From positions 1 through 22,365 of IMG/VR virus record IMGVR_UViG_3300006749_000160: 22,365 bases of DNA. One strand, written 5' to 3'. This DNA is from a virus. Below, piece by piece: positions 20 through 22,365 of the stretch. The notes beneath the pieces were generated by a model that saw only the letters and a list, made by a program, of their open reading frames with translations, did no database searches and was not told the origin of the DNA. The number at the start of each line of letters is the position of its first letter. Within the stretch, counting starts at the first letter, position 1. Made by a program: the position numbers and the translations under genes.

Positions 20-1906
20 GTGCCTTTAACAAAACTACAATTCCGTCCTGGGATCAATAGAGATATAACATCTTTTTCTAATGAAGGTGGTTGGGTTGAT
101 TGTGATCGAGTGCGGTTTCGTTTGGGTTATCCTGAAATTATAGGTGGCTGGGAAAAGTATACTGATGAAACATATCTTGGCACAGCTAGGGGTTTATTTA
201 ATTGGGCTGCTTTAGATGGCAGTAATTTACTAGGGTTAGGCACGGAAGTCAAATACTATATAGAAGAAGGCCAACAATTTTATGATGTAACCCCTATTAG
301 AAAAACTTCCACAAACAGTATCACATTTGCTGCTACAAATGGTAGCTCTACAATAACAGCTACAGATAGTAATCATGGGGCGGTGGTAGCTGATTTTGTA
401 ACAATATCAGGAGCTGTTAGTTTAGGTGGAAATGTTACAGCAGCCGTGTTAAATCAAGAATATCAGATAACAAGTATCCCTACCGCTAATACTTATACAT
501 TTGAAGCCAAAGATACATCAGGCGCAACAGTTACAGCAAATGCTAGTGATAGTGGTAATGGTGGCTCTGGGGTTGATGGTGTTTATCAAATTAATTCAGG
601 CCTAGCAAATGGAGTCGGTGGCACAGGTTGGGGTGCGGGAACATGGGGCAGAGGTACTTGGGGATCTGCTGCTACTGTAGGCGTAACAACACAATTAAGG
701 TTGTGGAGTCATGATAATTTTGGTGAAAACTTAATTATTAATCCGCGTGATGGTGCTATATATTACTGGATCAAAGGTGATGGTTTTTCAACAAGAGCAG
801 TTGAAATTGGTGCAATAGGTGGGGCTAATGAAACTCCTATCATAGCAAAACAAATATTAGTCTCAGATGTTGATAGACATGTAATTGCATTTGGGACAAA
901 TCCTGTGGGTAGTTCTACACAAGACCCTCTTTTAATACGTTTTTCAGACCAAGAAAATGTTCTTGATTGGGAACCAACTGCAACTAATACTGCTGGCGAC
1001 TTACGCATAGGCACAGGTTCACAATTTGTAAAAGCTATAGAAACTAAACGTGAAATAGTTATTTTCACAAATAGTTCTATACACTCTATGCAGTTTATTG
1101 GCAGTCCGTTTACTTTTGGTATACAACCTCTTGCTTCTAATATTACCATCATGGGTCCAAATGCAGCAGTTGCTGTAGAAGATGCTGTGTTTTGGATGGG
1201 AAAACAAAACTTTTATCTGTATGATGGTAAAACACAACAATTACCATGTAGTGTAACTGAGCATGTGTTTTTTGATTTTGATTTTGATCAGTTTGAAAAA
1301 GTGTACGCTGGTATTATATCAGAGTTTAGTGAAGTTATTTGGTTTTATCCTTCTAATACAAACTCATTAGCTAATGGTGGGACAGGTGAAAATGATAGAT
1401 ATGTCATTTACAATTACTCAGAAAACATTTGGTATTATGGTGATTTAGGCAGAACAGCATTTATTGATAGAGGTATAAGAGATTTTCCAATAGGGGCAGC
1501 AGACAATTACCTATACAACCATGAGTCGGGGTATACAGATGATGGCGCAGCATTAGTAGCAAGTATTGAATCTAGCCCGATTGATATGGGTGAGGGCGAT
1601 CAATTTACTTTTATACGCAGAATTATACCTGATTTTACATTCATAGGTTCTACTAATACAGACCCTACTGTAAATGTCACATTGCAATCCAATAATTTTC
1701 CGGGAGGTAATTATTTGCAAAGTGAGGTAGCGCAAGTAGATAGAACAGCTACTTCTACAACAGTGCCTTTTGAAAAATTTACAGATAAAGCTGATGTTAG
1801 GTTAAGAGGTAGAGCATTTAGTATAAAAGTAGACTCATCATCTGTAGGTACAAGATGGCGGTTAGGTAGTCCACGAGTTGATATGAGACAAGATGGGAGA
1901 AGGTAA
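20..1906 (+). CDS. P22 gp10-like packaged-DNA stabilisation / head-tail protein
   Basis: A 628-residue virion protein that most likely closes the portal or tail hub after DNA packaging. The N-terminus (PGINRDITSFSNEGGWVDCD, residues 10-29, then RVRFRLGYPEIIGGW) is the signature I associate with the P22 gp10 / phage-stabilisation family of podoviruses. P22 gp10 itself is about 470 residues. The extra length here includes a Ser/Thr/Gly-rich beta-type stretch at about residues 98-180 and a Gly/Trp motif GWGAGTWGRGTWGS at 203-216 that is usual in marine phage versions. The start is a GTG: an in-frame TAA six bases upstream excludes any earlier start. The Shine-Dalgarno is weak (GATGAG). The stop overlaps the next ATG by one base (TAATG). 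Family membership is by recalled motif, not alignment. Confidence 0.75.
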   Translation: MPLTKLQFRPGINRDITSFSNEGGWVDCDRVRFRLGYPEIIGGWEKYTDETYLGTARGLFNWAALDGSNLLGLGTEVKYYIEEGQQFYDVTPIRKTSTNSITFAATNGSSTITATDSNHGAVVADFVTISGAVSLGGNVTAAVLNQEYQITSIPTANTYTFEAKDTSGATVTANASDSGNGGSGVDGVYQINSGLANGVGGTGWGAGTWGRGTWGSAATVGVTTQLRLWSHDNFGENLIINPRDGAIYYWIKGDGFSTRAVEIGAIGGANETPIIAKQILVSDVDRHVIAFGTNPVGSSTQDPLLIRFSDQENVLDWEPTATNTAGDLRIGTGSQFVKAIETKREIVIFTNSSIHSMQFIGSPFTFGIQPLASNITIMGPNAAVAVEDAVFWMGKQNFYLYDGKTQQLPCSVTEHVFFDFDFDQFEKVYAGIISEFSEVIWFYPSNTNSLANGGTGENDRYVIYNYSENIWYYGDLGRTAFIDRGIRDFPIGAADNYLYNHESGYTDDGAALVASIESSPIDMGEGDQFTFIRRIIPDFTFIGSTNTDPTVNVTLQSNNFPGGNYLQSEVAQVDRTATSTTVPFEKFTDKADVRLRGRAFSIKVDSSSVGTRWRLGSPRVDMRQDGRR

Positions 1907-2196
1907 TGGCTACTAATGTTACACCTTTTCCTAGATTACCGACTCCTGGGAAACAAATAGATGAAAAATATATAACAGATTTAATCAGAGCATTAGAAAT
2001 ATTTTTGCGGCAAATGCAAAATCCTCAGCTTAATTTTCAAGAGGTTCCTACAAGTGGTAACAATAATTTGTTAGAACAAGGGGATATTTATATAGCCGAT
2101 GGTGGGTTTTTGAAAATAATTGGAAAAACAGAAATATTTAGTGGTAGTTTTGAAGCCACTGGTTCTTTAGGAAGTGTAACAGTATCTGTTTCATAA
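1906..2196 (+). CDS. Small conserved phage structural-module protein, function unknown
   Basis: A 96-residue protein whose ATG shares its first base with the stop of the gp10-like gene and follows a strong GGGAGAAGG ribosome-binding site. The first half (PFPRLPTPGKQIDEKYITDL) is helical and predicts a short amphipathic segment with LIRALEIFLRQM. The second half is Gly/Ser/Val-rich and probably beta, ending TGSLGSVTVSVS. There are no cysteines, no signal peptide and no membrane segment. Its position between a head-tail protein and internal virion proteins, and its translational coupling to the former, suggest a small virion or assembly component. I recognise similar short proteins in this position in marine podoviruses but know of no assigned function. 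Confidence 0.7.
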   Translation: MATNVTPFPRLPTPGKQIDEKYITDLIRALEIFLRQMQNPQLNFQEVPTSGNNNLLEQGDIYIADGGFLKIIGKTEIFSGSFEATGSLGSVTVSVS

Positions 2197-2198
2197 GG

Positions 2199-2289
2199 TT
2201 GCATAGTGCGGATATTAGGTTTATGATGCAAGCAGCAAGTTTCAGGATTAGCTACCCTGCATCTCATTTTATAAGGAAAGTAAGATGCA
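2199..2289 (+). promoter_or_regulatory. Leader with mutually exclusive hairpins covering a start codon (candidate)
   Basis: The 88-base gap before the next gene holds four short complementary blocks. TTGCAT (2199-2204) and TGCATC (2258-2263) can each pair with either of two GATGCAA copies (2225-2231 and 2284-2290). The second GATGCAA contains the ATG of the 2285 gene. The 7-bp pairing 2258-2264 with 2283-2289 would bury the start codon and leave the Shine-Dalgarno AAGGAAAG (2273-2280) in the loop, while pairing 2225-2230 with 2258-2263 would free it. The stems are short, so this may be chance. Confidence 0.25.
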
Positions 2290-3781
2290 AGGTATAGCCA
2301 CTTTACCCTACGAAGTACAAATGAGACCGATGATCCCTGTCGGTGGTTTAGGAACAGTGCAATCAGCCGCAAAAATGTTGGCTGATTTTGGACGTGAGGG
2401 CGATACATATATTGTACATGCTGCCGAAGGTGAAACAGTTATACCACTTGAGGTATTAGAAGCTAACCCTCGCATGAAGCATATGCTTTTCCAACAAATG
2501 GAAGATATGGGATTAGAGCCTGAGCGTTATGTAGTTGGCAGTGAGTTTAACAGTTTAAATCCTGTAACTGGTCAGCCTGAGTTTTTCTTTAAAAAGCTGT
2601 TCAGAGGCATTAAGAAGATTGCTAAAAAGGTAGCCCCTGCCGTCTTACCTATAGCGTTGTCCTTTATTGCTGGTCCAATATATGGTGCAGCATTAGGCTC
2701 TGGTATTACTACTTTATTACAAGGTGGCAATATAAAAGATGCTGCTAAATCTGCGTTGATATCAGGTGGTCTTGGTGCATTAGGTGCTGGCATTGGTAGT
2801 AAAGTAGGTGGTGGTGGATTTTTTGAGGGTATCCAAAAAGCTGCATTTAATCCTTTAGAAGCAGCAGCCGCACAAAGAGAAGCATTTAGTAGTATGTTTG
2901 ATAGGTTTAAAACACCACAAATGACCGACGCGCAATTAACAGATAGTAATGTGATAGGTCCCACATCAACACCCACAACAACAGGTGCGGAACCTATATC
3001 TGATAGGGTAGCCAGTATCCCAGAAGTCGGTTCTGGTAGTGGCACTTCTGAAGTAATAACATCAAATACTCCAGAAAAAACCTTTATTGAGAAGTACATA
3101 TATGATCCAAAACCAGCACAATTTGATGCTGCTTCAGGGCAAATTACTGGTGAAGGTACATTAGAGGGTATATTTAGCCCTAGTAGAAGTAGTCTAGACC
3201 CTGTACTTGCTGGTTCAGAAGCTGGTGCTCAAGCAGCAAGTACAATAGCAGAAACGAATAAAGCATTAGCCGCAGCAGGTCAACCAGCATTAAGTAAGCA
3301 AGCAGCTCAAAACTTAGTAACAGATGCTGTAACAAAAGCTAGCACCGCAGCTACTGATGCTGGTTTCTTTACAGCGTATGGTCCTGCTTTAGGTGCAGCA
3401 GGAACTGCTGCAGGAGCCTATGGTATCGCACAATTATTTCCTGATGATAACCCTGATGATGAAGATCAAGATGGATATCATGATACAACAGGTGTGATGC
3501 TTTATAAAGACCAGCCAGAAAAATATGGTTATGGCAGGGATTTTTACGGTGATAACCCTTATTACCAAGATTCTACTTTTACTCCTGGAGCATTGTTTGC
3601 TAGAGGCGGTGGTGAAATAAATGGTCCAGGAACCTCTACCAGTGATTCTATACCAGCTATGTTGAGTGATGGTGAATTTGTTATGAATGCAAAAGCTGTT
3701 CGTGGCGCAGGTGATGGCGACCGTAGAGCTGGTGCAAAACGCATGTATGATATGATGCGTAAGTTTGAAAGGATGGCATAA
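2285..3781 (+). CDS. IPAMLSDGEFV-motif virion protein, probable internal/ejection or tail component
   Basis: A 498-residue protein. The C-terminus carries NGPGTSTSDSIPAMLSDGEF (residues 447-466) and then VMNAKAVRGAG, a motif shared by many phage tail-tape-measure-like and internal proteins whose exact role is unknown. Near the N-terminus, HAAEGETVIPLEVLEANP (45-62) looks like a looser version of the same GE-V pattern. Residues 103-122 (KKLFRGIKKIAKKVAPAVLP) form a strongly cationic amphipathic stretch leading into a Gly/Ala-rich hydrophobic region (about 121-172). That layout is compatible with membrane interaction during DNA ejection. The middle (210-330) is low-complexity. The start is the ATG after TAAGGAAAGTAAG. 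It is followed by a one-base-overlap junction. Function is inferred from position and motif. Confidence 0.7.
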   Translation: MQGIATLPYEVQMRPMIPVGGLGTVQSAAKMLADFGREGDTYIVHAAEGETVIPLEVLEANPRMKHMLFQQMEDMGLEPERYVVGSEFNSLNPVTGQPEFFFKKLFRGIKKIAKKVAPAVLPIALSFIAGPIYGAALGSGITTLLQGGNIKDAAKSALISGGLGALGAGIGSKVGGGGFFEGIQKAAFNPLEAAAAQREAFSSMFDRFKTPQMTDAQLTDSNVIGPTSTPTTTGAEPISDRVASIPEVGSGSGTSEVITSNTPEKTFIEKYIYDPKPAQFDAASGQITGEGTLEGIFSPSRSSLDPVLAGSEAGAQAASTIAETNKALAAAGQPALSKQAAQNLVTDAVTKASTAATDAGFFTAYGPALGAAGTAAGAYGIAQLFPDDNPDDEDQDGYHDTTGVMLYKDQPEKYGYGRDFYGDNPYYQDSTFTPGALFARGGGEINGPGTSTSDSIPAMLSDGEFVMNAKAVRGAGDGDRRAGAKRMYDMMRKFERMA

Positions 3782-4725
3782 TGGCTGTCGAAGAGGTAAT
3801 TACCAGAGAAGCTCCTGATATTGAAGCCTATAAAATTGGGCTTATGGAGCAAGCTAAAGCTCTGACTTCAGCACCGCCCACAGGTGGTCTTCCTGGAATA
3901 ACATCACAAGGTATGACGCAAGCAGGGCAAGATGCGCTTACTGCTGCTCAAACAGGATTAGGGGCATATCAACCTTATTTACAGGCTGGCTCAACTACTA
4001 TGGGTGCAGCATTACCTACTTTTCAGGCTGGACAAGCAGCCCTAGGACAAGCACAAGCGACTTATGGTATGGGTACAGGTGCGCCAACACAGGCGCAAAT
4101 GGATGCCTATATGAATCCGTATCAGCAAGCTATACAAGATGAAATTAATCGTTCTTTTGATCAACAATCAGCACAAGCTGGTTTGACTGCTGCAGGAGCT
4201 GGTGCATTTGGTGGTAGTAGAGGTGCAATACAACAAGCTGAAATAGGTCGTAATCGTGCTCAGGCATTAGCTCAATCACAAGCGCAAAACTTTTTGCAAG
4301 CTCAGCAAGCTGCACAAAATGAAATGCAACGTTCATTACAAGCTGCTCAAGGGTTAGGCCAATTAGGGGCAACACAAGGACAGTTAGCACAAGGCATTGG
4401 TGCATTAGGATTACAACAGGCTGGTCTGGGCGAGCTTGCTACTAAACTTAATATTGCAGATACGGCTAATCTGGCGGCACTTGGTGAACAAGAGCGTGGT
4501 ATATTGCAAGCACAAGATGAAGCGGCAAGACAAACACAAATGCAACAAATCTATGAACCATATCAACGACTTGGTTTCTACAGTGATATATTGCGTGGTG
4601 CTCCAACAAGTCAATCTGTTATTACGACAGGTGCGGCTCCACAGCCTAGTGTTTTAAATCAATTATTAGGTGCTGGTATTGGTGGTCTTAGCCTATATGG
4701 TGCAGCACAGAAGGCATTTAGTTAA
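3781..4725 (+). CDS. Ala/Gln-rich internal virion protein
   Basis: A 314-residue protein very rich in Ala, Gln and Gly, with long helical and probably coiled-coil stretches (about 105-260). It contains the motif GAGAFGGSRGAIQQAEIGRN (139-158), which I recognise from internal virion or ejection-type proteins of marine podoviruses. The C-terminus ends in a weakly hydrophobic segment, VLNQLLGAGIGGLSLYGA (291-308). There is no signal peptide and no enzyme motif. The ATG overlaps the upstream stop by one base and is preceded by GAAAGGATGG. Its place just before two giant proteins parallels the small-medium-large order of ejection proteins in T7 (gp14, gp15, gp16) and P22 (gp7, gp20, gp16), which supports a role inside the capsid. 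Sequence alone cannot prove it. Confidence 0.65.
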   Translation: MAVEEVITREAPDIEAYKIGLMEQAKALTSAPPTGGLPGITSQGMTQAGQDALTAAQTGLGAYQPYLQAGSTTMGAALPTFQAGQAALGQAQATYGMGTGAPTQAQMDAYMNPYQQAIQDEINRSFDQQSAQAGLTAAGAGAFGGSRGAIQQAEIGRNRAQALAQSQAQNFLQAQQAAQNEMQRSLQAAQGLGQLGATQGQLAQGIGALGLQQAGLGELATKLNIADTANLAALGEQERGILQAQDEAARQTQMQQIYEPYQRLGFYSDILRGAPTSQSVITTGAAPQPSVLNQLLGAGIGGLSLYGAAQKAFS

Positions 4726-7484
4726 TGGCTGGTCCAGGCGAAGTACAAGATCCAAGACTTAGAGCTCTGTTACTCGGTGGAGGGACAGCGGTAGGTGCTG
4801 CGCCATTTGTAGCGAGCGCAATAAAAGGGTCGCTTGATAAAAAATCAAAAGCAAATGAGTTAGCAAATAGGCAAGCTGCTAGAAAAGCAAAATTAGATGC
4901 TAGGTTTGGACAAGCAACTCCAGCGGCAGGGCGTGGTGGTTTATCAACTTTGGGACGTTTTGCTGGTCCAGCAGGAGCTGTTGCTGGTATGGTTGTGCCT
5001 TCAGGTAATATGGCAGGTCCGGAGGCTACGATGTTACGACCTAATGAAACCTATAGTGATCCTGTACTACAAAGAACTATGTTTAGTGGTCAAGCACCTA
5101 AAGCAGATGGACAAGGTATAACATCTGGACTTGAAACATCACCAGAACAAGAAGCCCAAATGGAAGAAGTTATGGGTGATATGTCAGGTATGATGCAAAG
5201 TATGGCTGAGGGTATTGATAATGCTAGTGATTATGCTGGTATTATGAATGCTATCCGTGGTGATGAACAAAGTATAGACCAGCGTCGTGGTGAGTTAGCA
5301 CAATTGATTGGTAAATCAGATGCTGAAAAAACACCTGAATCTGCGCTTACACTTATACAGCCCTCGCTTACTTTACTAGAAGCCACTGACCAAGGCTCTC
5401 CAGATTCCCCTGAACCTGTTATGGATGAGGATATATTATCTGCATTAGGTAAAGCTGGTGAGCAAGGTGAGGCTTTGGCTCGTATGGAGATGGGTGAGCA
5501 ACCTGTAAAAATGTTTAAGGGTGGCTTACAAAATGATGCACAAGCTGCAATGTCTTTCCCAGGAGACCCTGTAGCATTTGCGCCCACACAAACTGGGACG
5601 AGTCAACAACAATTATTAAGTGCTCTAGTACAAGGCTTACCACAACCTAAAACATCTGCTGAATTGCTACCTCAGTATCAAGAACTTTATAAAGATTCAG
5701 CAAAAGCATATGAGTTAAACCCATACATAGCAGGTCTTAATCTTGCTGCTGCTGTTGCTAATGCACCTGAAGGGGAATTAATTAGCTCTATTTTAGCACC
5801 TGAAACAATAAAAGCAGTAAGTGATCCTATCTTGCAGATGGCACAAGCTAGAGGTCAGGGTGATCTATTAGCTAAGAAAGCTGCGATGGAACGTGCAGCT
5901 ACAGAATCATCTGATTATAAGAAATCTATTCAAGCGTACACCACAGCCGCTATACCGAAAATGTTTGAAAAGGGTAAAATAACCACACAGACAATAGGTA
6001 ATCAAGTAGTTGTTATTGATGAAGATGCATTAAGGGCTGCTAATGCTGCTGGTACGAAATATCAACCTCTTACTGTAGATGGGAAACTCGCCCCTAATTT
6101 CCAAGTCACTAGACTTAGTGATACTCAATGGGTAACAACAGATAAGAATACTGGTGCAAGCACAGTAGGTGGTGACCAAAAAACAACTTGGAAAGAAATA
6201 ACAACTCAGGATGGTGATATTATTTTTGTAGATGCAAATCGCCCATCAAATTATCAAGTAATAAGTGAGGGCGGTGGACAAATACTTGGCGATGCTAAAG
6301 ATGGATTTTTCCGTCTCAAAGACGGTGTAATATCACAAGTAAATGTAGCTGGATATACACCTCCTGGAGACCTGACAGAAAGAATGAAGGAAGCGCGAAG
6401 GTTTGGTGAGTTGCAAGCGGCGGCAAAAGCTGGAACAATGACTATAGCAGAAACAGGTGAATTAGAGGTGCTTACAAAAGCCCTCATACCAGCGGAAGAT
6501 AAAACAGAATTTGAAGCTGCTGTTGATCAATACATAACAGGCTATAAAACAAGTATAATTGATGCTATGGGCGAAGGCACAGATGAAACCTACGCTACTG
6601 CTAGAGCTAATGAAGTACGACAACTTATGTTGTATGAGTATATACAAGCTAAAACAACGAAACCTGGAGGACAATACGATCCAGAGCAGAGCCTGAAAAA
6701 AGCTGCATCCACATCATTACTCAAAGCTATAGATGGTGTAAATGAAACAGCACAGGTAGCCGCAAATCTTGCAAGTCAAGCACAGGTTGTAGCAGAATTA
6801 AGTGGTGATCAAGGATTCCGTGGTGGTCAACTTGGTTCTGCAAGATTGACAGTGCTTAATTTAGCTAAAGAGATGGGTATAGAAAACCTTCTTGAGAAAC
6901 AATTAGGTATTGATGATGGAACATTAGAAGACTTCTTTGGTGGCAATCCTGATGTGGGTAGAGTGCAAGAAGCACTTGGTGAGGCAATGGTTGTATCAAT
7001 GGCTGGTGCATTCCCAGGAAACCTCAATCAAACAGAAATTGATATTCTTAAATCAGCTGCGTTGGGTATCGGTAAAACTCCAGGAGCGAATAAACTATTA
7101 GCAGATACCTTAACGGCTATATCAGAAAGACAAACTAAAGTTGCACAAGAATTGAATACCTTTATTTCAGGTAAACGTGAGGGCGGTGCAGATTCATTTG
7201 AGCTTAAATTAGCTTATGATATTGAGAAGTCAAAGTTAGATGCTAAGTATGCAGATCCTGAAACAAATTCAGTATTGCAAAATTTGAGAGAACGTGCAGA
7301 TGCTTTATCCGACCGCACTGATGATATATCTGGATTAGCAGGTACTTACCCTGATACTGCTGCGTTAGAAGCAGATTATCAAAATCTCATGAATAGATAT
7401 CCTAATATTTTCCCTACTTTGCCTGCTCGTGGTCCAAATAGACAAGCAGCTCTGGAACGAGCTTTAGATTTCATAGGTCGATAA
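4725..7484 (+). CDS. Large internal virion (ejection) protein, 919 aa
   Basis: A 919-residue protein with a short hydrophobic N-terminal segment (LLLGGGTAVGAAPFVASAI, residues 15-33) followed by a basic helix (35-60). A Met- and acid-rich region follows (about 140-180), then long helical stretches. I see no lysozyme, transglycosylase or protease motif. The C-terminus ends with a helical region (AALERALDFIGR). The ATG overlaps the previous stop by one base, with AGAAGG about ten bases upstream. The stop is directly abutted by the next ATG (TAAATG). Size, helicity and position between other internal proteins suggest an ejection-complex component equivalent in place to T7 gp15 or P22 gp20. I cannot assign a homologue by motif. 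Confidence 0.6.
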   Translation: MAGPGEVQDPRLRALLLGGGTAVGAAPFVASAIKGSLDKKSKANELANRQAARKAKLDARFGQATPAAGRGGLSTLGRFAGPAGAVAGMVVPSGNMAGPEATMLRPNETYSDPVLQRTMFSGQAPKADGQGITSGLETSPEQEAQMEEVMGDMSGMMQSMAEGIDNASDYAGIMNAIRGDEQSIDQRRGELAQLIGKSDAEKTPESALTLIQPSLTLLEATDQGSPDSPEPVMDEDILSALGKAGEQGEALARMEMGEQPVKMFKGGLQNDAQAAMSFPGDPVAFAPTQTGTSQQQLLSALVQGLPQPKTSAELLPQYQELYKDSAKAYELNPYIAGLNLAAAVANAPEGELISSILAPETIKAVSDPILQMAQARGQGDLLAKKAAMERAATESSDYKKSIQAYTTAAIPKMFEKGKITTQTIGNQVVVIDEDALRAANAAGTKYQPLTVDGKLAPNFQVTRLSDTQWVTTDKNTGASTVGGDQKTTWKEITTQDGDIIFVDANRPSNYQVISEGGGQILGDAKDGFFRLKDGVISQVNVAGYTPPGDLTERMKEARRFGELQAAAKAGTMTIAETGELEVLTKALIPAEDKTEFEAAVDQYITGYKTSIIDAMGEGTDETYATARANEVRQLMLYEYIQAKTTKPGGQYDPEQSLKKAASTSLLKAIDGVNETAQVAANLASQAQVVAELSGDQGFRGGQLGSARLTVLNLAKEMGIENLLEKQLGIDDGTLEDFFGGNPDVGRVQEALGEAMVVSMAGAFPGNLNQTEIDILKSAALGIGKTPGANKLLADTLTAISERQTKVAQELNTFISGKREGGADSFELKLAYDIEKSKLDAKYADPETNSVLQNLRERADALSDRTDDISGLAGTYPDTAALEADYQNLMNRYPNIFPTLPARGPNRQAALERALDFIGR

Positions 7485-10400
7485 ATGAGTTTAGATTTTA
7501 CTGATATTGGTGGTGGGAAAGCTGGTGGTACAAGTCTGGACTTTTCTGATTTGCAACCTCCTACAACTCCTGGAGGTGTGTCATTAACACCCATCACAGT
7601 GCAAGATACATTTACAGAGCCAGACCCAACAGTAGACAGACAAGCTGCTGAAGACGATTTTGCAGCAGGGGTAAATTTAGTTAATGATTTAGAAGCTAAT
7701 GGTTTTATTTTGCCCGCGCCCGATGCTCCTCTTTCATTATCTTTATCTGATATGCTTTCACAAGAAACAATTAATGCTGCCGAACAAGCATCTGTATTAG
7801 ATGCAGAGCGTGTAGAAAATGTATTATTTGATTTAGTGCCAGATTACCAAGGTTCTAATGTTGATCCTAAAGTATTAAGTTTTGGGGATAGGGATAGTTT
7901 ATCCCGTATGCCGAGATTTGAGCAAAGACAAAGTTATTTCAAAAATAAATTTCCTAGAGGAGAGCTGTTCAGAGTGGATACAGGTGATGGCAACCTTGTA
8001 GAAATGTACAAAACATCACCAAATGGTAAAGCATATCGTGTATCTGATGATGTATTTTCTTTTGCTGATATTGGTGGTGGCACAGGAGCTTTTGCTAATT
8101 TCACTACTGCAGGATCAGTTCTAGGTTCTATTTACAGTCCTTTTTTAGGAACTCTAAGCGGAGCTTATGTAGGTAATACTATAGATGATGCGATTGCTAA
8201 TTTTTTAGCTACCCCTGATGGCGAATATTTTAGTGATGAAAAAGACTTTAAAATGAAGTTTTTATCGGGTGACCGCGTAGCTTTATCACTTATCGATGCA
8301 ACACTAACCAAAGTTCTCCCAGGAGCTGGACGCGCTGGTAAACATATGGTGAAGCAAGGTCTGTCATCTCTTGAGCGTAGATTCGCTAAAGAAGGTGAAG
8401 GCCTTATTTTTGAAGGACAGCCAAACACAAGTCTATTGTATGAGCTTGGTGTTTTTAGCACAGTGCCAAAAGCGGTTGATGCACAAAAAGCAGCACAAAC
8501 CATAGCAAGAGAGACAGGCGTTAAACTCCCTGCTTTAAATATATCACAATTAAGCAGCAGTCAAGTCATGCGAGGCATTGCAAGTCAAGTATCGGGTACT
8601 GCTGATACTTTGCCTAAAAATTTATCTAATCAACAATCAAAACTTTTACAAGCCTTAAATGCAAAAGTGCAAAAACTAGGCGGTAATTATGAACAATTAA
8701 GTCAAGATGAACTTTACAACTATATTGCGCTGACAAACAAACAGTTAGCAGATGATGTTTTTAATGCATTTAGATTAAACTCAGGTGGAAAAGATTTATT
8801 GCCTGAGATAGATGATGCGGCTGCTGCTTTAAGTGCAAGTGCAAGAAAATTTGATGATGGTATAAAAAATGCTATAGACCGTAAATATACAGAAGCCTTC
8901 ACAGTTGCAGGAATAGATGATGTTGTATTTGATATATCTGATCTTGTAGCAGAAGCACAACGTGTAAAAGCTGGCATACCTATTACTAAACAACCAGCAG
9001 GAGGTCGTACAGCAACAGGTAAAGCTCTAGATAAAGATAAAAAATTTGCACCTGAACAAACTGTCCGCACCAGAGATTTTGGTGGTGACCTAGCTAATAT
9101 CACTAATAAACTTATAAATGTTTTTGATCCTAAAATAAAAAATCTTAAAGCTGTAAAAGGTTCTGGTGAGCCAGAACTAATAAGTTCTTTTAGGCAGTTA
9201 AAAGATATACGCGATCAATTAAGTGATTTAATAAATGATGGTGCTGGGGGTGAGGCTTCTAAGGGTGCTACAGACCTTATTAAACAGATAGACAATTTAA
9301 TACTTAACGGTATTGAAAATGGAAAAGTTACAGGTGGCTCTGACGCATGGCGAAAAGCATACACAGAAGCAGGTGAACTTGTTAAACAACGTATAGATGC
9401 TAAAAATTTTACAAGAGTGGGTCAGCTATTTGGTAGGAAAGGCGAAGTCACTCCTGTTGAAGTTGCACAAAATCTATTAGATGGCAGTATTACTTTTGAG
9501 ACATTAGGCATAATTAAACGTATGGCTAATACCTCTGCTTTGAACGCAACAGAAAAAGAAGCTGGTCAGGCTTTTATAAAAAATATTGGTGATACTTTTG
9601 CGAGTTTACTGATTCATAATCCTGATGAGGGATTTAAACGCATATCTGATTTGAAAAAACGTGATTTACGACTGTTCAATACTTTATTTGATAAGCCCAC
9701 TAAAGATGCTTTAAATGCTTGGGAAATAACTGGAAAGCGATTGGCTAGTGATCCTGTCCAAGCAGGAATGGACGGTTTCACAACGAACGGTGCTACCGCA
9801 AAAATCTATGTTGCTGCTCAATACGCTAAAGGTCAAGATGCAGCCGTGGCAAAATTCATTAATGCTAATGGCGGTGTGAGTGGAGATAGAGCAAAACAAA
9901 TAAGAGCTGCTATTTTAGATGATATTGTTGAAAAAGTTTCCCAAGTACAAAGAGAGGGGGCAGCAAAATCTTTTAGTGAAACTGTAATTAACCCCATACA
10001 ACTAGCAGAAGAGATGAGAAAGTTTCAGACTTTCCAAGGGGAATACAGAGCTTTTAAACCTTTATTTGGTGAGGTTGATCAAGCTGGTAATTTTGTAAAT
10101 AAACAAATCAAACAAAATGATGATATGACTTTTACTGGCACATCTGAATTAGATATGTTGCAAAATTTTAAAATTTATGCTGCATTTTTAGGGAATACAC
10201 CCGACATTGGCGGTGCGTTTTCAACAGGTAATATCCGTGCTTCGTTGTTAGATGTAGGTACGGCAAAATCGGTTGGTGCTCTAAAACATTTATTTACTAA
10301 TAAATATATATCAAAAGTATTTGCCGCAGAACCCTCAGTTGAACAGCTTGAAAGAGCTATAAAAATTAAAAGTGGCGCGGGAGGAGTTAGGGCAAGCATC

Positions 10401-19671: not shown

Positions 19672-20289
19672 ATGGCAGCTATCAAAACTTATGCGGTGTT
19701 AGAAAATGATAATACCAGTAATCGTAACGATGCCTACTCTTACTTTGTATTCAAATCCTTGCGTGAGTTAAAGGCGTGTAAAGAACTAAACGAGCATAGT
19801 ATTGTGTTTGCTGAAGTTCAACAGTTACAGGATACCTATAGTGAGGAAGAGTTGCGGAGTGTAGTTGCCGCTACAGTTGGTGAGTGTGCCTTACCAAATT
19901 TCCCTAGCTTTCATAAAAACTTTGCAGAGTTTGTACATGAACGAGCTAAAAAATATAAACCTGTTTTAAAGGAGAAACAAATGACTGCTGAAATAGTAGA
20001 TATTACGCCGGAGCCACAGGGTATTGCGTCTGTTGCCACAGAAAAACCAAAGCGTGTGGCAAAATCTAAGTATGATGAAAATGCTAAAATACTTTTGCCT
20101 ACAGGATCAATGGGCATGTTCGTTAATCCATATCGTAAAAATAGTAATCGGTGGCATAATTTTGAAGCCTTAACCAGATCGGATACAGTGGGTGAGGCTC
20201 TTGCTGCTATGAAAAAGTTAAGTCCAGGAGGCAATAGTGTTGATATTCGCCTTGCTATTGAAAAAGGTGCTATCAAGCTAGGAGAATAA
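19672..20289 (+). CDS. Two-part phage protein with probable internal translation start
   Basis: A 205-residue protein that seems to join two parts. The N-terminal 103 residues (for example NRNDAYSYFVFKSLRELKAC) are not recognised. The C-terminal 102 residues start at Met104 and contain KYDENAKILLPTG, then FVNPYRKNSNRWHNFEAL, then DTVGEALAAM and DIRLAIEKGAI. They resemble a stand-alone small protein family of phages and mobile elements with the layout K-Y-D-xx-A, then NPxRxxSxxxxxF, then TVGExLAA, then DxxxAxxxGxI. Their function is unknown. A strong ribosome site precedes Met104, so the second part may also be made alone. The first ATG follows an excellent AAAGGAGG. The stop lies two bases before the next ATG. 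Confidence 0.75.
   Translation: MAAIKTYAVLENDNTSNRNDAYSYFVFKSLRELKACKELNEHSIVFAEVQQLQDTYSEEELRSVVAATVGECALPNFPSFHKNFAEFVHERAKKYKPVLKEKQMTAEIVDITPEPQGIASVATEKPKRVAKSKYDENAKILLPTGSMGMFVNPYRKNSNRWHNFEALTRSDTVGEALAAMKKLSPGGNSVDIRLAIEKGAIKLGE
19968..19983 (+). promoter_or_regulatory. Internal ribosome-binding site with in-frame ATG
   Basis: AAAGGAG (19968-19974) lies six bases before an in-frame ATG (19981-19983) that is codon 104 of the surrounding gene. Strength and spacing equal those of real starts nearby, such as the one at 18501. It would give a 102-residue product made of only the conserved C-terminal part. The alternative is chance, because the bases also encode Lys-Glu-Lys-Gln. Confidence 0.5.
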
Positions 20290-20291
20290 TT

Positions 20292-21188
20292 ATGGAGAAC
20301 ATAGAAAGGTTCTGCTACTGGATTAATGAGCGTCATGCCATTTATCAAAAAAGAGCCAAGGGGCTTCCTGCCCCTTGGACAGAAGACACTATCTTACAAC
20401 AATATAAATTCACAAACCCTTTCCGTGAGAATGATAGGGTAACTGTTTGGATGCGGCAAAACTGGACAAAGCCAAATGATAACCGCCCACATGGTGAGAT
20501 GATATTTAACTGTTGTATGTTTCGTATGGTTGGAACTAGTGAGTTTGCTGAAGCGCATGGTTGGGTAGAAGAGTTTAATCCTGAGCATACTAAGTCTTTG
20601 ATTGAAGAAAGGTTGAAGCAGGGTTTACGGACTTTTACTGGTGCATATATAATCACTAACCAAGGACTCAAAGCACCTAAATCGGAGGTAGTTGTTGACC
20701 ATTTCCTTTCGCCAATATGGGAAAACAAAGAAGCGTTGGCGCAGATTGCCACCGAAACACAGTCGTTGGAAGAAGTACACAAAGCGTTGGCGGCATATAA
20801 AGGATGGGGAGGGGGAGGTTTTATGTCATACGAGGTTGTTACCGACCTCAACTACACACCAGTCCTTGCCAAAGCCGAAGACAAATACAAATGGGCAAAC
20901 GCTGGTCCGGGAGCAAAGCGTGGCCTCAACAGGATCCACGATAGGCCGCTCACAAAAGCATTAGGTGCTTATCAAAGCAATAGGGAGATGCAAGATTTAC
21001 TCGAAGATTCACACCGTTATCTTGGCAAACACATCCCGACTTTGGCGGTGGATATGCGCTGTATTGAACATAGCTTATGCGAGTGGGATAAATATGAGCG
21101 CGTTAGGCTTGGTCAAGGCACTCCGCGTAGTAAGTATAATGGACTACAGAGTTCAGTGCTGGAGGCTCCGATTGGGACGGTGGCGTAA
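20292..21188 (+). CDS. Alpha-glutamyl/putrescinyl thymine pyrophosphorylase-like protein (HMUDK_hel family)
   Basis: A 298-residue predicted DNA base hypermodification enzyme. In the known pathways, 5-hydroxymethyl-dU in phage DNA is pyrophosphorylated by a kinase, and enzymes of this DNA-glycosylase-like helical family then replace the pyrophosphate with an amino acid or polyamine. Family hallmarks visible here are ENIERFCYWINERHAIY (2-18), KFTNPFRENDRVTVW (39-53), FTGAYI (115-120), the glycosylase-like GWGGGGFMSYEVVTDL (171-186), WANAGPGAKRGLNRIH (201-216) and IEHSLCEWDKYERVRLGQG (258-276). Length is normal for a stand-alone member. No P-loop kinase domain is fused to it. The ATG follows AGGAGA. 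The second half is clearly richer in G+C than the first. Downstream genes also belong to modification families. The substrate cannot be told from sequence. Confidence 0.78.
   Translation: MENIERFCYWINERHAIYQKRAKGLPAPWTEDTILQQYKFTNPFRENDRVTVWMRQNWTKPNDNRPHGEMIFNCCMFRMVGTSEFAEAHGWVEEFNPEHTKSLIEERLKQGLRTFTGAYIITNQGLKAPKSEVVVDHFLSPIWENKEALAQIATETQSLEEVHKALAAYKGWGGGGFMSYEVVTDLNYTPVLAKAEDKYKWANAGPGAKRGLNRIHDRPLTKALGAYQSNREMQDLLEDSHRYLGKHIPTLAVDMRCIEHSLCEWDKYERVRLGQGTPRSKYNGLQSSVLEAPIGTVA
20356..20378 (+). repeat. Perfect 9-bp inverted repeat inside the pyrophosphorylase-like gene
   Basis: CCAAGGGGC (20356-20364) and GCCCCTTGG (20370-20378) flank a 5-base spacer. In mRNA this makes a very stable hairpin at codons 22-29, encoding Lys-Gly-Leu-Pro-Ala-Pro. 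It could slow early elongation or bind a protein. It may also simply reflect the coding of a conserved Gly-Leu-Pro-Ala-Pro-Trp segment. Confidence 0.5.
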
Positions 21189-21190
21189 TT

Positions 21191-21490
21191 ATGTTGTGTC
21201 CAAAATGCAATGGCAAATCCGAGGTCGTAGACAGTCGTCCTTATCAAGGCACAATACGGAGGAAGAGGAACTGTCCGAAATGCAAATACAATTATCGGAC
21301 ATTGGAACTATTAGAGCCGCAAGAGCCGCCGAAGCCGAAGCCGAAAGCAGAGCCAAAACCCAAAACCAGAAAACGAGTGTTAAAACCAAAAAGAAAACAA
21401 ACGATGTTTGAGCTCGATTACATGAGTGATGAAGAATTAGAAAGGGCAGTGCTTGAAGGGCAAGTAAGGTTTGATGAGGATGAGATATGA
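21191..21490 (+). CDS. NrdR-like zinc-ribbon protein lacking the ATP cone
   Basis: A 99-residue protein. Residues 1-39 are a near-complete NrdR-type zinc ribbon: CPKC (3-6), VVDSRP (12-17), RRKRNCPKC (23-31), then YRTLE. Cys3, Cys6, Cys28 and Cys31 would bind Zn. Bacterial NrdR (about 150 residues) joins this ribbon to an ATP cone and represses ribonucleotide reductase genes. Here the cone is absent, replaced by a Pro/Lys-rich linker (42-70) and a short acidic helical end (YMSDEELERAVLEG). It may bind DNA or RNA, possibly as a regulator or adaptor for the neighbouring modification enzymes; that is inference. The start lies two bases after the upstream stop, with only a weak ribosome site. The stop overlaps the next start (ATGA). 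Confidence 0.75.
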   Translation: MLCPKCNGKSEVVDSRPYQGTIRRKRNCPKCKYNYRTLELLEPQEPPKPKPKAEPKPKTRKRVLKPKRKQTMFELDYMSDEELERAVLEGQVRFDEDEI

Positions 21491-22272
21491 TACCAATATA
21501 TATTCCAACTAGGGGCAGGATGAATAACCAAGTTACTTGGCAAAGCATTGGTCCGGAGGGCAGAGAGCATGCTGTTCTTGTATGCCCACAAGATGAAGTA
21601 AACTGGCATACGAGACAGGGTCGGTATTGTTTAAATCGTGGTGATTTAAAAGGTATCAATAATGTAAGGCAGTTCATATTAGAACATGCCGTGGAGCAGA
21701 AGCATGATAAAATTATTATTCTGGATGATGATCTTATATTTGGTCGCCGCATACATGGGCTGGCTCCCAACTTAAGAAAAACAAATCAAGAAGAGATGCA
21801 TGAGTTATGGGAGCGCATGGAGTGGTTGTTGAATAACTTTACTCATGTGGGACTTAGCCCAAGGCAAATGAATGATAAGCACTTCCCTGATACAGTTAAG
21901 TATGGTATGCGACAAAATGCTGTTCACGCCATACGTCCTGAAATTATTCATGGGTTGGGCATACGTTATGATACTATGGAGCTTATGGAAGATTATTACG
22001 TTACACTTGAGTTATTTAAGCATGGTCATGGTAATGCTGTAATTGTTGATTGGACATGGGATCAGCGTGGTGCTTCAGGTGCTGCTGGTGGCTGTAGTTC
22101 ATACCGCAATGCAGAGTTACAAGAACGTGCGAGCCTTGCCCTTGCTGAAAAGTTTCCTGATTATGTAAAAGCTGTACAGAAAGAAACTAAAACAGGTTGG
22201 GAGGGTATGAAAACACGTTGGGATGTTCGCGTACAATGGCGAAAGGCTGCTAAAGATGGCAACTGTATCTAA
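21487..22272 (+). CDS. TET-associated-type DNA glycosyltransferase (TAGT family)
   Basis: A 261-residue glycosyltransferase-A-like enzyme that probably transfers a sugar to a hydroxymethylated base in phage DNA. Visible features are IPIYIPTRGR (2-11) at the N-terminus, the DxD-type metal/nucleotide-sugar site KIIILDDDLIF (75-85, with Asp80-82), FTHVGLSPRQMND (118-130), MEDYYVTLELFKHG (167-180), GGCSSYR (201-207), and the characteristic ending KETKTGWEG (232-240) with DVRVQWRKA (246-254). I know this set from TAGT proteins. In characterised phages, TAGT follows TET-type dioxygenases and glycosylates 5-hydroxymethylcytosine. No TET gene lies in the window, so the target base and sugar are open. 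It overlaps the zinc-ribbon gene by four bases and the radical SAM gene by 17. Confidence 0.75.
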   Translation: MIPIYIPTRGRMNNQVTWQSIGPEGREHAVLVCPQDEVNWHTRQGRYCLNRGDLKGINNVRQFILEHAVEQKHDKIIILDDDLIFGRRIHGLAPNLRKTNQEEMHELWERMEWLLNNFTHVGLSPRQMNDKHFPDTVKYGMRQNAVHAIRPEIIHGLGIRYDTMELMEDYYVTLELFKHGHGNAVIVDWTWDQRGASGAAGGCSSYRNAELQERASLALAEKFPDYVKAVQKETKTGWEGMKTRWDVRVQWRKAAKDGNCI

Positions 22273-22365
22273 CCATTATCAAGACCCACCTAATTCTATA
22301 CAAATAGAATTAACTGAGGGATGTAACCTTGCTTGTTCTTTTTGCGGTATACAAGCGATACGTGA
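22256..22365 (+). CDS. Radical SAM enzyme, N-terminal part (continues past the window)
   Basis: Only the first 36 codons are present; the window ends inside the gene. They contain QIELTEGCNLACSFCGIQAI (16-35), the [4Fe-4S] cluster motif CxxxCxxC at Cys23, Cys27 and Cys30, with the usual beta-strand and Thr-Glu-Gly lead-in and Gly after the third Cys. The protein should use S-adenosylmethionine to start radical chemistry. Its reaction cannot be told from this part. The ATG lies inside the 3' end of the glycosyltransferase gene, with AAAGG nine bases upstream, so the two are probably co-translated. Radical SAM enzymes take part in several phage base hypermodification pathways, and the context points that way. 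A radical SAM enzyme with another phage role remains possible. Confidence 0.85.
   Translation, partial: MATVSNHYQDPPNSIQIELTEGCNLACSFCGIQAIR

Follow-up and report, generated by a model that had tools for sequence, protein, structure and literature searches.

We analyzed a 22,365-base virus record (IMG/VR record IMGVR_UViG_3300006749_000160; hereafter, the window), whose last four adjacent genes encode an HMUDK_hel protein, a small zinc-ribbon protein, a TAGT-family glycosyltransferase and, cut off by the end of the record, a radical SAM enzyme. These genes are part of a base-modification locus based on 5-hydroxymethyl-deoxyuridine (5-hmdU). We consider it somewhat more likely than not that this locus directs a 5-hmdU-type hypermodification of phage DNA in which the second step is glycosylation, rather than phosphorylation and amino-acid transfer, and in which the radical SAM enzyme edits the sugar. 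A preliminary description of the window had proposed a base-hypermodification cassette of these four genes, and our open reading frame calls reproduced their positions and their spacing (in order, a 2-base gap, a 4-base overlap and a 17-base overlap):

20292-21188, plus strand: HMUDK_hel / aGPT-PPlase clade 1 protein, 298 amino acids (PF18723, E 5e-52)
21191-21490, plus strand: small zinc-ribbon protein, 99 amino acids, with a K/P-rich tail (PF22811, E 8e-12)
21487-22272, plus strand: TAGT-family GT-A glycosyltransferase, 261 amino acids (PF20691, E 8e-14; phrog_842, E 1e-44)
22256-22365, plus strand: 5' end of a radical SAM/SPASM enzyme, with an ATG at 22256 and a reading frame still open at the end of the window

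Profile searches matched the first three Pfam families within the window and Radical_SAM and SPASM on the completed fourth gene, and the PHROG matches of the cassette proteins were phrog_2396, phrog_842 and phrog_1802. The sequence to the right was obtained from a 59.6-kb viral contig (locus L003), which matches the window at 99.9% identity across 12 kb and represents the same marine phage; L003 positions equal window positions minus 10291. It contains the following genes:

L003 11965-12984: complete radical SAM/SPASM enzyme, 339 amino acids (PF04055 and PF13186)
L003 13068-14096: thymidylate synthase (TS) homologue, following the radical SAM gene
L003, after the TS homologue and in this order: a 137-amino-acid protein, DNA polymerase A (PolA) and an HD YfbR-like nucleotidase

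The preliminary description had suggested looking to the right for a TS homologue, and the one found there carries a hydroxymethylase-type signature. It aligned with the enzyme of phage M6 at 43% identity over 96%, and 'PCN' replaces the 'PCH' of thymidylate synthase, as in M6, whose DNA contains 5-hmdU-derived bases (PMC6449724). In this family, positions 147 and 177 (E. coli TS numbering) track substrate and modification (PMC8670742). The pyrimidine-selecting position is Asn in every hydroxymethylase-type member that is readable there. Asn is the state in TS, which uses dUMP, whereas cytosine hydroxymethylases such as T4 dCMP hydroxymethylase (PMC6400193) and MilA carry Asp, that of MilA being directly visible in our alignment. 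Because this position is Asn, the dUMP-type residue, and the protein is like the M6 enzyme, we take uracil to be the base and infer that the product is 5-hmdUMP. The part of the preliminary description that proposed a DNA base-hypermodification locus is strengthened by this gene, while its mixed scheme of amino-acid and sugar addition is not supported.

Two other readings of the TS homologue were weighed. In the first, it would be a cytosine hydroxymethylase, and the sugar would be placed on hydroxymethylcytosine as in T-even phages. The family's best PDB match is indeed a CMP hydroxymethylase, ahead of TS, and PHROG labels the family of the TAGT protein (phrog_842) a beta-glucosyl-HMC-alpha-glucosyltransferase; given Asn instead of Asp in all aligned members and the identity to the M6 enzyme, however, we regard this reading as quite improbable. 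The second, in which the gene belongs to ordinary nucleotide metabolism and makes dTMP with no modified base involved, is barely credible: although the protein is a member of the TS family and lies close to PolA and the HD nucleotidase, it has 'PCN' for 'PCH', its best matches are hydroxymethylases, and HMUDK_hel and a glycosyltransferase are its constant neighbors.

To follow the fate of the 5-hydroxymethyl group, we searched 60 related records (24 close and 36 distant; many are 50-70 kb and some may be fragments) for the enzymes of the phosphorylation and amino-acid branch. The P-loop 5-hmdU DNA kinase family PF18748 was found in 0 of the 60 (0/24 close, 0/36 distant). Since M6 gp54 was matched by the same profile (E 8e-18), PF18748 is able to detect a real kinase. 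The amino acid:DNA transferase family PF18724 was likewise found in 0 of the 60 records above the cut-off, and at least one weak match lies on the HMUDK_hel gene itself. Amino-acid or polyamine addition, one arm of the pathway in the preliminary description, is therefore left without its enzymes in these records. As a full alternative, an M6/ViI-type route would have 5-hmdU phosphorylated, an amino acid or polyamine attached and the product rearranged by the radical SAM enzyme, with TAGT acting separately, which is close to what the preliminary description envisaged. HMUDK_hel and the TS homologue are common to M6, and the M6 cluster too has a radical SAM gene; however, with both enzyme families absent from all 60 records and the M6 radical SAM protein dissimilar to that of the window, we give this route little credence.

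TET/JBP oxygenases are another maker of hydroxymethyl-pyrimidines. The TAGT family is named for its association with them, although this is no strict criterion of the family. Tet_JBP was detected in 0 of 19 close relatives and in 1 of 31 distant records, and TET/JBP was rejected as the hydroxymethyl source in the window's group. In the single distant case, L162 (positions 5803-7874; L161 is similar), a TET/JBP oxygenase gene (PF12851, E 1e-19) comes directly after a gene of the same radical SAM family, and a GT-B group C gene lies upstream; the TS-type hydroxymethylase seems to be replaced by TET there.

The evidence for a glycosylation step comes from the TAGT gene and from what replaces it. 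The PF20691 match (E 8e-14) covered the full length of the profile (positions 1-205 of 205), and the motifs DDD at 80-82 (the metal-binding DxD) and E168-D169 are invariant in relatives; a profile search of the PDB with TAGT gave no match. TAGT is predicted to add a sugar to 5-hmdU in DNA. We surveyed the slot between HMUDK_hel and the TS homologue in 74 relatives with both flanks readable. TAGT with the radical SAM gene filled it in 27, a group B GT-B glycosyltransferase (about 430 amino acids, with weak Pfam GT4 matches) in 32 and a group C protein (about 330 amino acids, with no Pfam match) in 13; the slot was empty in two, L066 and L075, but both of these contigs encode a group B enzyme some 5.5 kb farther upstream. 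A structural model of group C (predicted local distance difference test score, pLDDT, 73) matched GT-B enzymes with E values down to 7e-9, including T4 alpha-glucosyltransferase in a structure with hydroxymethyluracil (HMU)-containing DNA (1y6g), and groups B and C showed a distant likeness in profile comparison.

In the PolA tree, the TAGT and radical SAM state forms one clade, while B and C swap several times; L030 (group B) and L033 (group C), for example, have near-identical PolA. Glycosyltransferases are exchanged in one slot of a conserved gene neighborhood, and wherever the radical SAM gene occurs in the window's group, it accompanies TAGT and never B or C alone. Some further loci show variations around the glycosyltransferases. 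FkbM-type methyltransferases (PF05050), a family that often methylates sugars, lie near them at L069 11982-12722 and L146 3299-4015. In a spring-water phage (MW202897.1; L298 6001-8299), a TAGT protein 33% identical to that of the window lies beside an HD protein and a protein annotated as pyrimidine hydroxymethylase, with no radical SAM annotated near TAGT.

The identification of the fourth gene as a radical SAM enzyme was borne out by the intact protein. The 36-amino-acid stub in the window reached only E 0.003, whereas the complete L003 protein matched Radical_SAM (E 3e-9) and SPASM (E 3e-12), with the CxxxCxxC and SPASM cysteines invariant among relatives. A profile scan recovered 92 viral relatives. 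In a distant set of 45 loci at 39-59% identity, reduced to 38 non-redundant loci (<85%), a glycosyltransferase was present in 35, a TS homologue in 33, HMUDK_hel in 32 and all three in 30; the median radical SAM identity was 45%, the gene order was scrambled, and in 15 of 31 loci TAGT lay no more than 150 bp away. Among 50,697 phage records, TAGT (4 records) and the radical SAM family (7) are rare and HMUDK_hel occurs in 383, so that we do not regard coincidence as a credible explanation. Another possibility is that the glycosyltransferase and the radical SAM enzyme modify a non-DNA target, such as a virion protein, the host envelope or a free nucleotide, their location here being accidental or due to shared timing. 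Phage GT-B enzymes do often act on surface sugars, but the link to the hydroxymethylase and HMUDK_hel holds across these diverged and rearranged loci, and we see only a slight chance that this account is right.

As for the reaction, the sole PDB family matched by the radical SAM profile was BtrN, and only in the SPASM/twitch region; no equivalog cut-off was reached in NCBIfam. BtrN oxidises an aminocyclitol (PMC9012708), a sugar-like substrate, and the match would fit a sugar-editing role. Taken alone, the claim that the radical SAM enzyme tailors the sugar falls somewhat short of an even chance in our judgment. Alternatively, the base may be 5-hmdU, with the base itself or its methylene carbon as the target of the radical SAM enzyme, which would form a carbon-carbon or other linkage, and the glycosyltransferase adding to that product. 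The gene comes and goes with TAGT, it is lacking from the GT-B versions of the locus in the window's group, and in L162 it adjoins a TET/JBP oxygenase, all of which would fit; however, the distant loci link it slightly more to the glycosyltransferase (35/38) than to TS (33) or HMUDK_hel (32), and we hold this alternative to be unlikely.

In cultured phages, considered as experimental models, matches to the radical SAM protein were distant only, mainly from Campylobacter phages, and lay within a different cluster. In one of these phages, CPt10 (L296 875-6430), a single run of genes comprises a glycine-amidinotransferase-like gene and five radical SAM genes, one of which is distantly related to that of the window. 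Kinship with the radical SAM gene of M6 was rejected, as BLAST found no similarity between the two. A search of 84,980 cellular genomes returned pattern matches, none of which was confirmed as a cellular relative. In a different kind of virus (L176-L179), TAGT and the radical SAM gene are joined by another radical SAM-like gene, and HMUDK_hel and the hydroxymethylase-type TS are not nearby.

The assignment of the first gene to HMUDK_hel in the preliminary description holds, with a correction of family: PF18723 is aGPT-PPlase1/HMUDK_hel, whereas the amino-acid transferase family is PF18724. The PF18723 match extends across 270 amino acids, homologues in Mesyanzhinovviridae are 33-40% identical, and about 100 residues are invariant in an alignment of 41 relatives. 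The protein has no P-loop. Its AlphaFold model is all-helical (pLDDT 87.6) and gave no significant PDB match, DNA glycosylases appearing only weakly (E 0.4-2.3). Homology to the amino acid:DNA transferase was considered and rejected, as HMMER matches were weak and profile-profile comparison gave no support. HMUDK_hel is a companion of 5-hmdU pathways; because PF18748 is missing from all 60 records, the occurrence of PF18723 is not bound to that of the kinase.

The zinc-ribbon protein matched PF22811 (Zn_ribbon_NrdR) over residues 1-39 only. No ATP-cone was found by profile search, and the NrdR equivalog TIGR00244 scored 30 bits, far under its cut-off of 124.65, which rules out an NrdR repressor. 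The gene is missing from 8-9 relatives with TAGT and radical SAM and is placed elsewhere in several with GT-B or GT-C enzymes. In view of these absences and relocations, the earlier proposal that it is a core member of the cassette is not supported, and we treat it as an optional passenger or regulator. Directly upstream of HMUDK_hel, a 205-amino-acid gene (window 19672-20289) has no family match and is kept in most relatives. The G003 contig (69,322 bases), to which locus L008 belongs, carries diverged capsid and tail genes twice (reversed orientation, about 51-10099 and 58861-69057), and so is over-length or chimeric.

Based on these data, we propose the following order of steps. The TS homologue would make 5-hmdUMP, and the phage polymerase would place 5-hmdU in DNA, replacing part of the thymine. 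HMUDK_hel may then recognize, select or present 5-hmdU in DNA, TAGT would attach a sugar to its hydroxymethyl group, and the radical SAM/SPASM enzyme may oxidise, epimerise or otherwise edit the attached sugar. Protection from host nucleases is the likely role. The final base is probably O-glycosylated 5-hmdU with a tailored sugar, as predicted from conserved gene neighborhoods.

Several points weigh against this pathway. PF18748 may have missed a divergent kinase, and many of the contigs are fragments. Genes that share a neighborhood need not act on the same substrate, and the role assigned to HMUDK_hel is a prediction that may prove wrong. As BtrN was matched over the SPASM part alone, sugar editing is one guess among many radical SAM reactions. 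Finally, T6 TAGT adds a second sugar, glucose, to already glucosylated hydroxymethylcytosine (PMC13216743, PMC13390438), and for this reason 5-hmdU is put forward as a candidate acceptor for TAGT.

More broadly, these loci may represent a widespread and so far undescribed branch in which interchangeable glycosyltransferases add a sugar to 5-hmdU and a radical SAM/SPASM enzyme specific to phages rebuilds that sugar, yielding base-J-like tailored bases; we put this forward tentatively. Glycosylated 5-hmdU in phage DNA had not been reported as of 2019 (PMC6449724). If the proposal is true, ocean phages and many uncultivated relatives use a sugar branch of 5-hmdU modification apart from the kinase and amino-acid branch of M6 and ViI, their DNA is predicted to contain glycosylated 5-hmdU, uracil-acting DNA glycosyltransferases could be sourced from them, and radical SAM chemistry would extend to sugar on DNA. 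With HMUDK_hel not tied to the kinase, its role also becomes testable. The radical SAM link, the slot exchange and the missing kinase appear to be new, with the qualification that our literature comparison was partial and an earlier mention of TAGT or radical SAM beside aGPT-PPlase1 is possible.

The PolA of the window phage best matched that of phage DSL-LC04 (56%), followed by pelagiphages 023Pt_psg01, HTVC027P and HTVC023P (51-55%), and we therefore regard it as an HTVC023P-type relative. Part of the window-type layout has already been reported for HTVC023P-type pelagiphages; the main text of that report does not mention radical SAM, and the portion of it compared here does not describe the missing kinase or the three-way glycosyltransferase exchange (PMC9599517). 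Phages M6 (Pseudomonas), SN1 (Sphaerotilus), Sonora (Stenotrophomonas) and Pam3 (Pseudanabaena) share with the window phage HMUDK_hel and a hydroxymethylase-type TS in the same order near PolA. However, their clusters carry a P-loop 5-hmdU DNA kinase beside HMUDK_hel as well as an amino acid:DNA transferase (in M6, gp51 with PF18724), both missing here, and M6 and SN1 additionally have a pyridoxal-phosphate (PLP) enzyme together with an unrelated radical SAM protein. Nmad5 occupies the slot from HMUDK_hel to TS in M6-type phages, whereas here a glycosyltransferase is found in it, with or without the SPASM radical SAM enzyme.

The T-even phages (T4 AGT and BGT, T6 TAGT) also pair a TS-family hydroxymethylase with a DNA glycosyltransferase; the TAGT family is shared, and group C resembles T4 AGT by fold. 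The T-even enzymes act on hydroxymethylcytosine, whereas the window's system has the dUMP-type Asn, HMUDK_hel and a radical SAM enzyme. Bacillus phage SP-15, whose DNA contains glucosylated dihydroxypentyluracil, bears a sugar on a modified uracil, as predicted here, and is set apart, as described, by the dihydroxypentyl side chain and a teichoic-acid-like gene cluster (PMC5977210). Base J of kinetoplastids is similar in its sugar on 5-hydroxymethyluracil, which is the predicted product here; base J starts from thymine in DNA through JBP oxygenases, whereas in the window phage hydroxymethylation is predicted to take place at the nucleotide.
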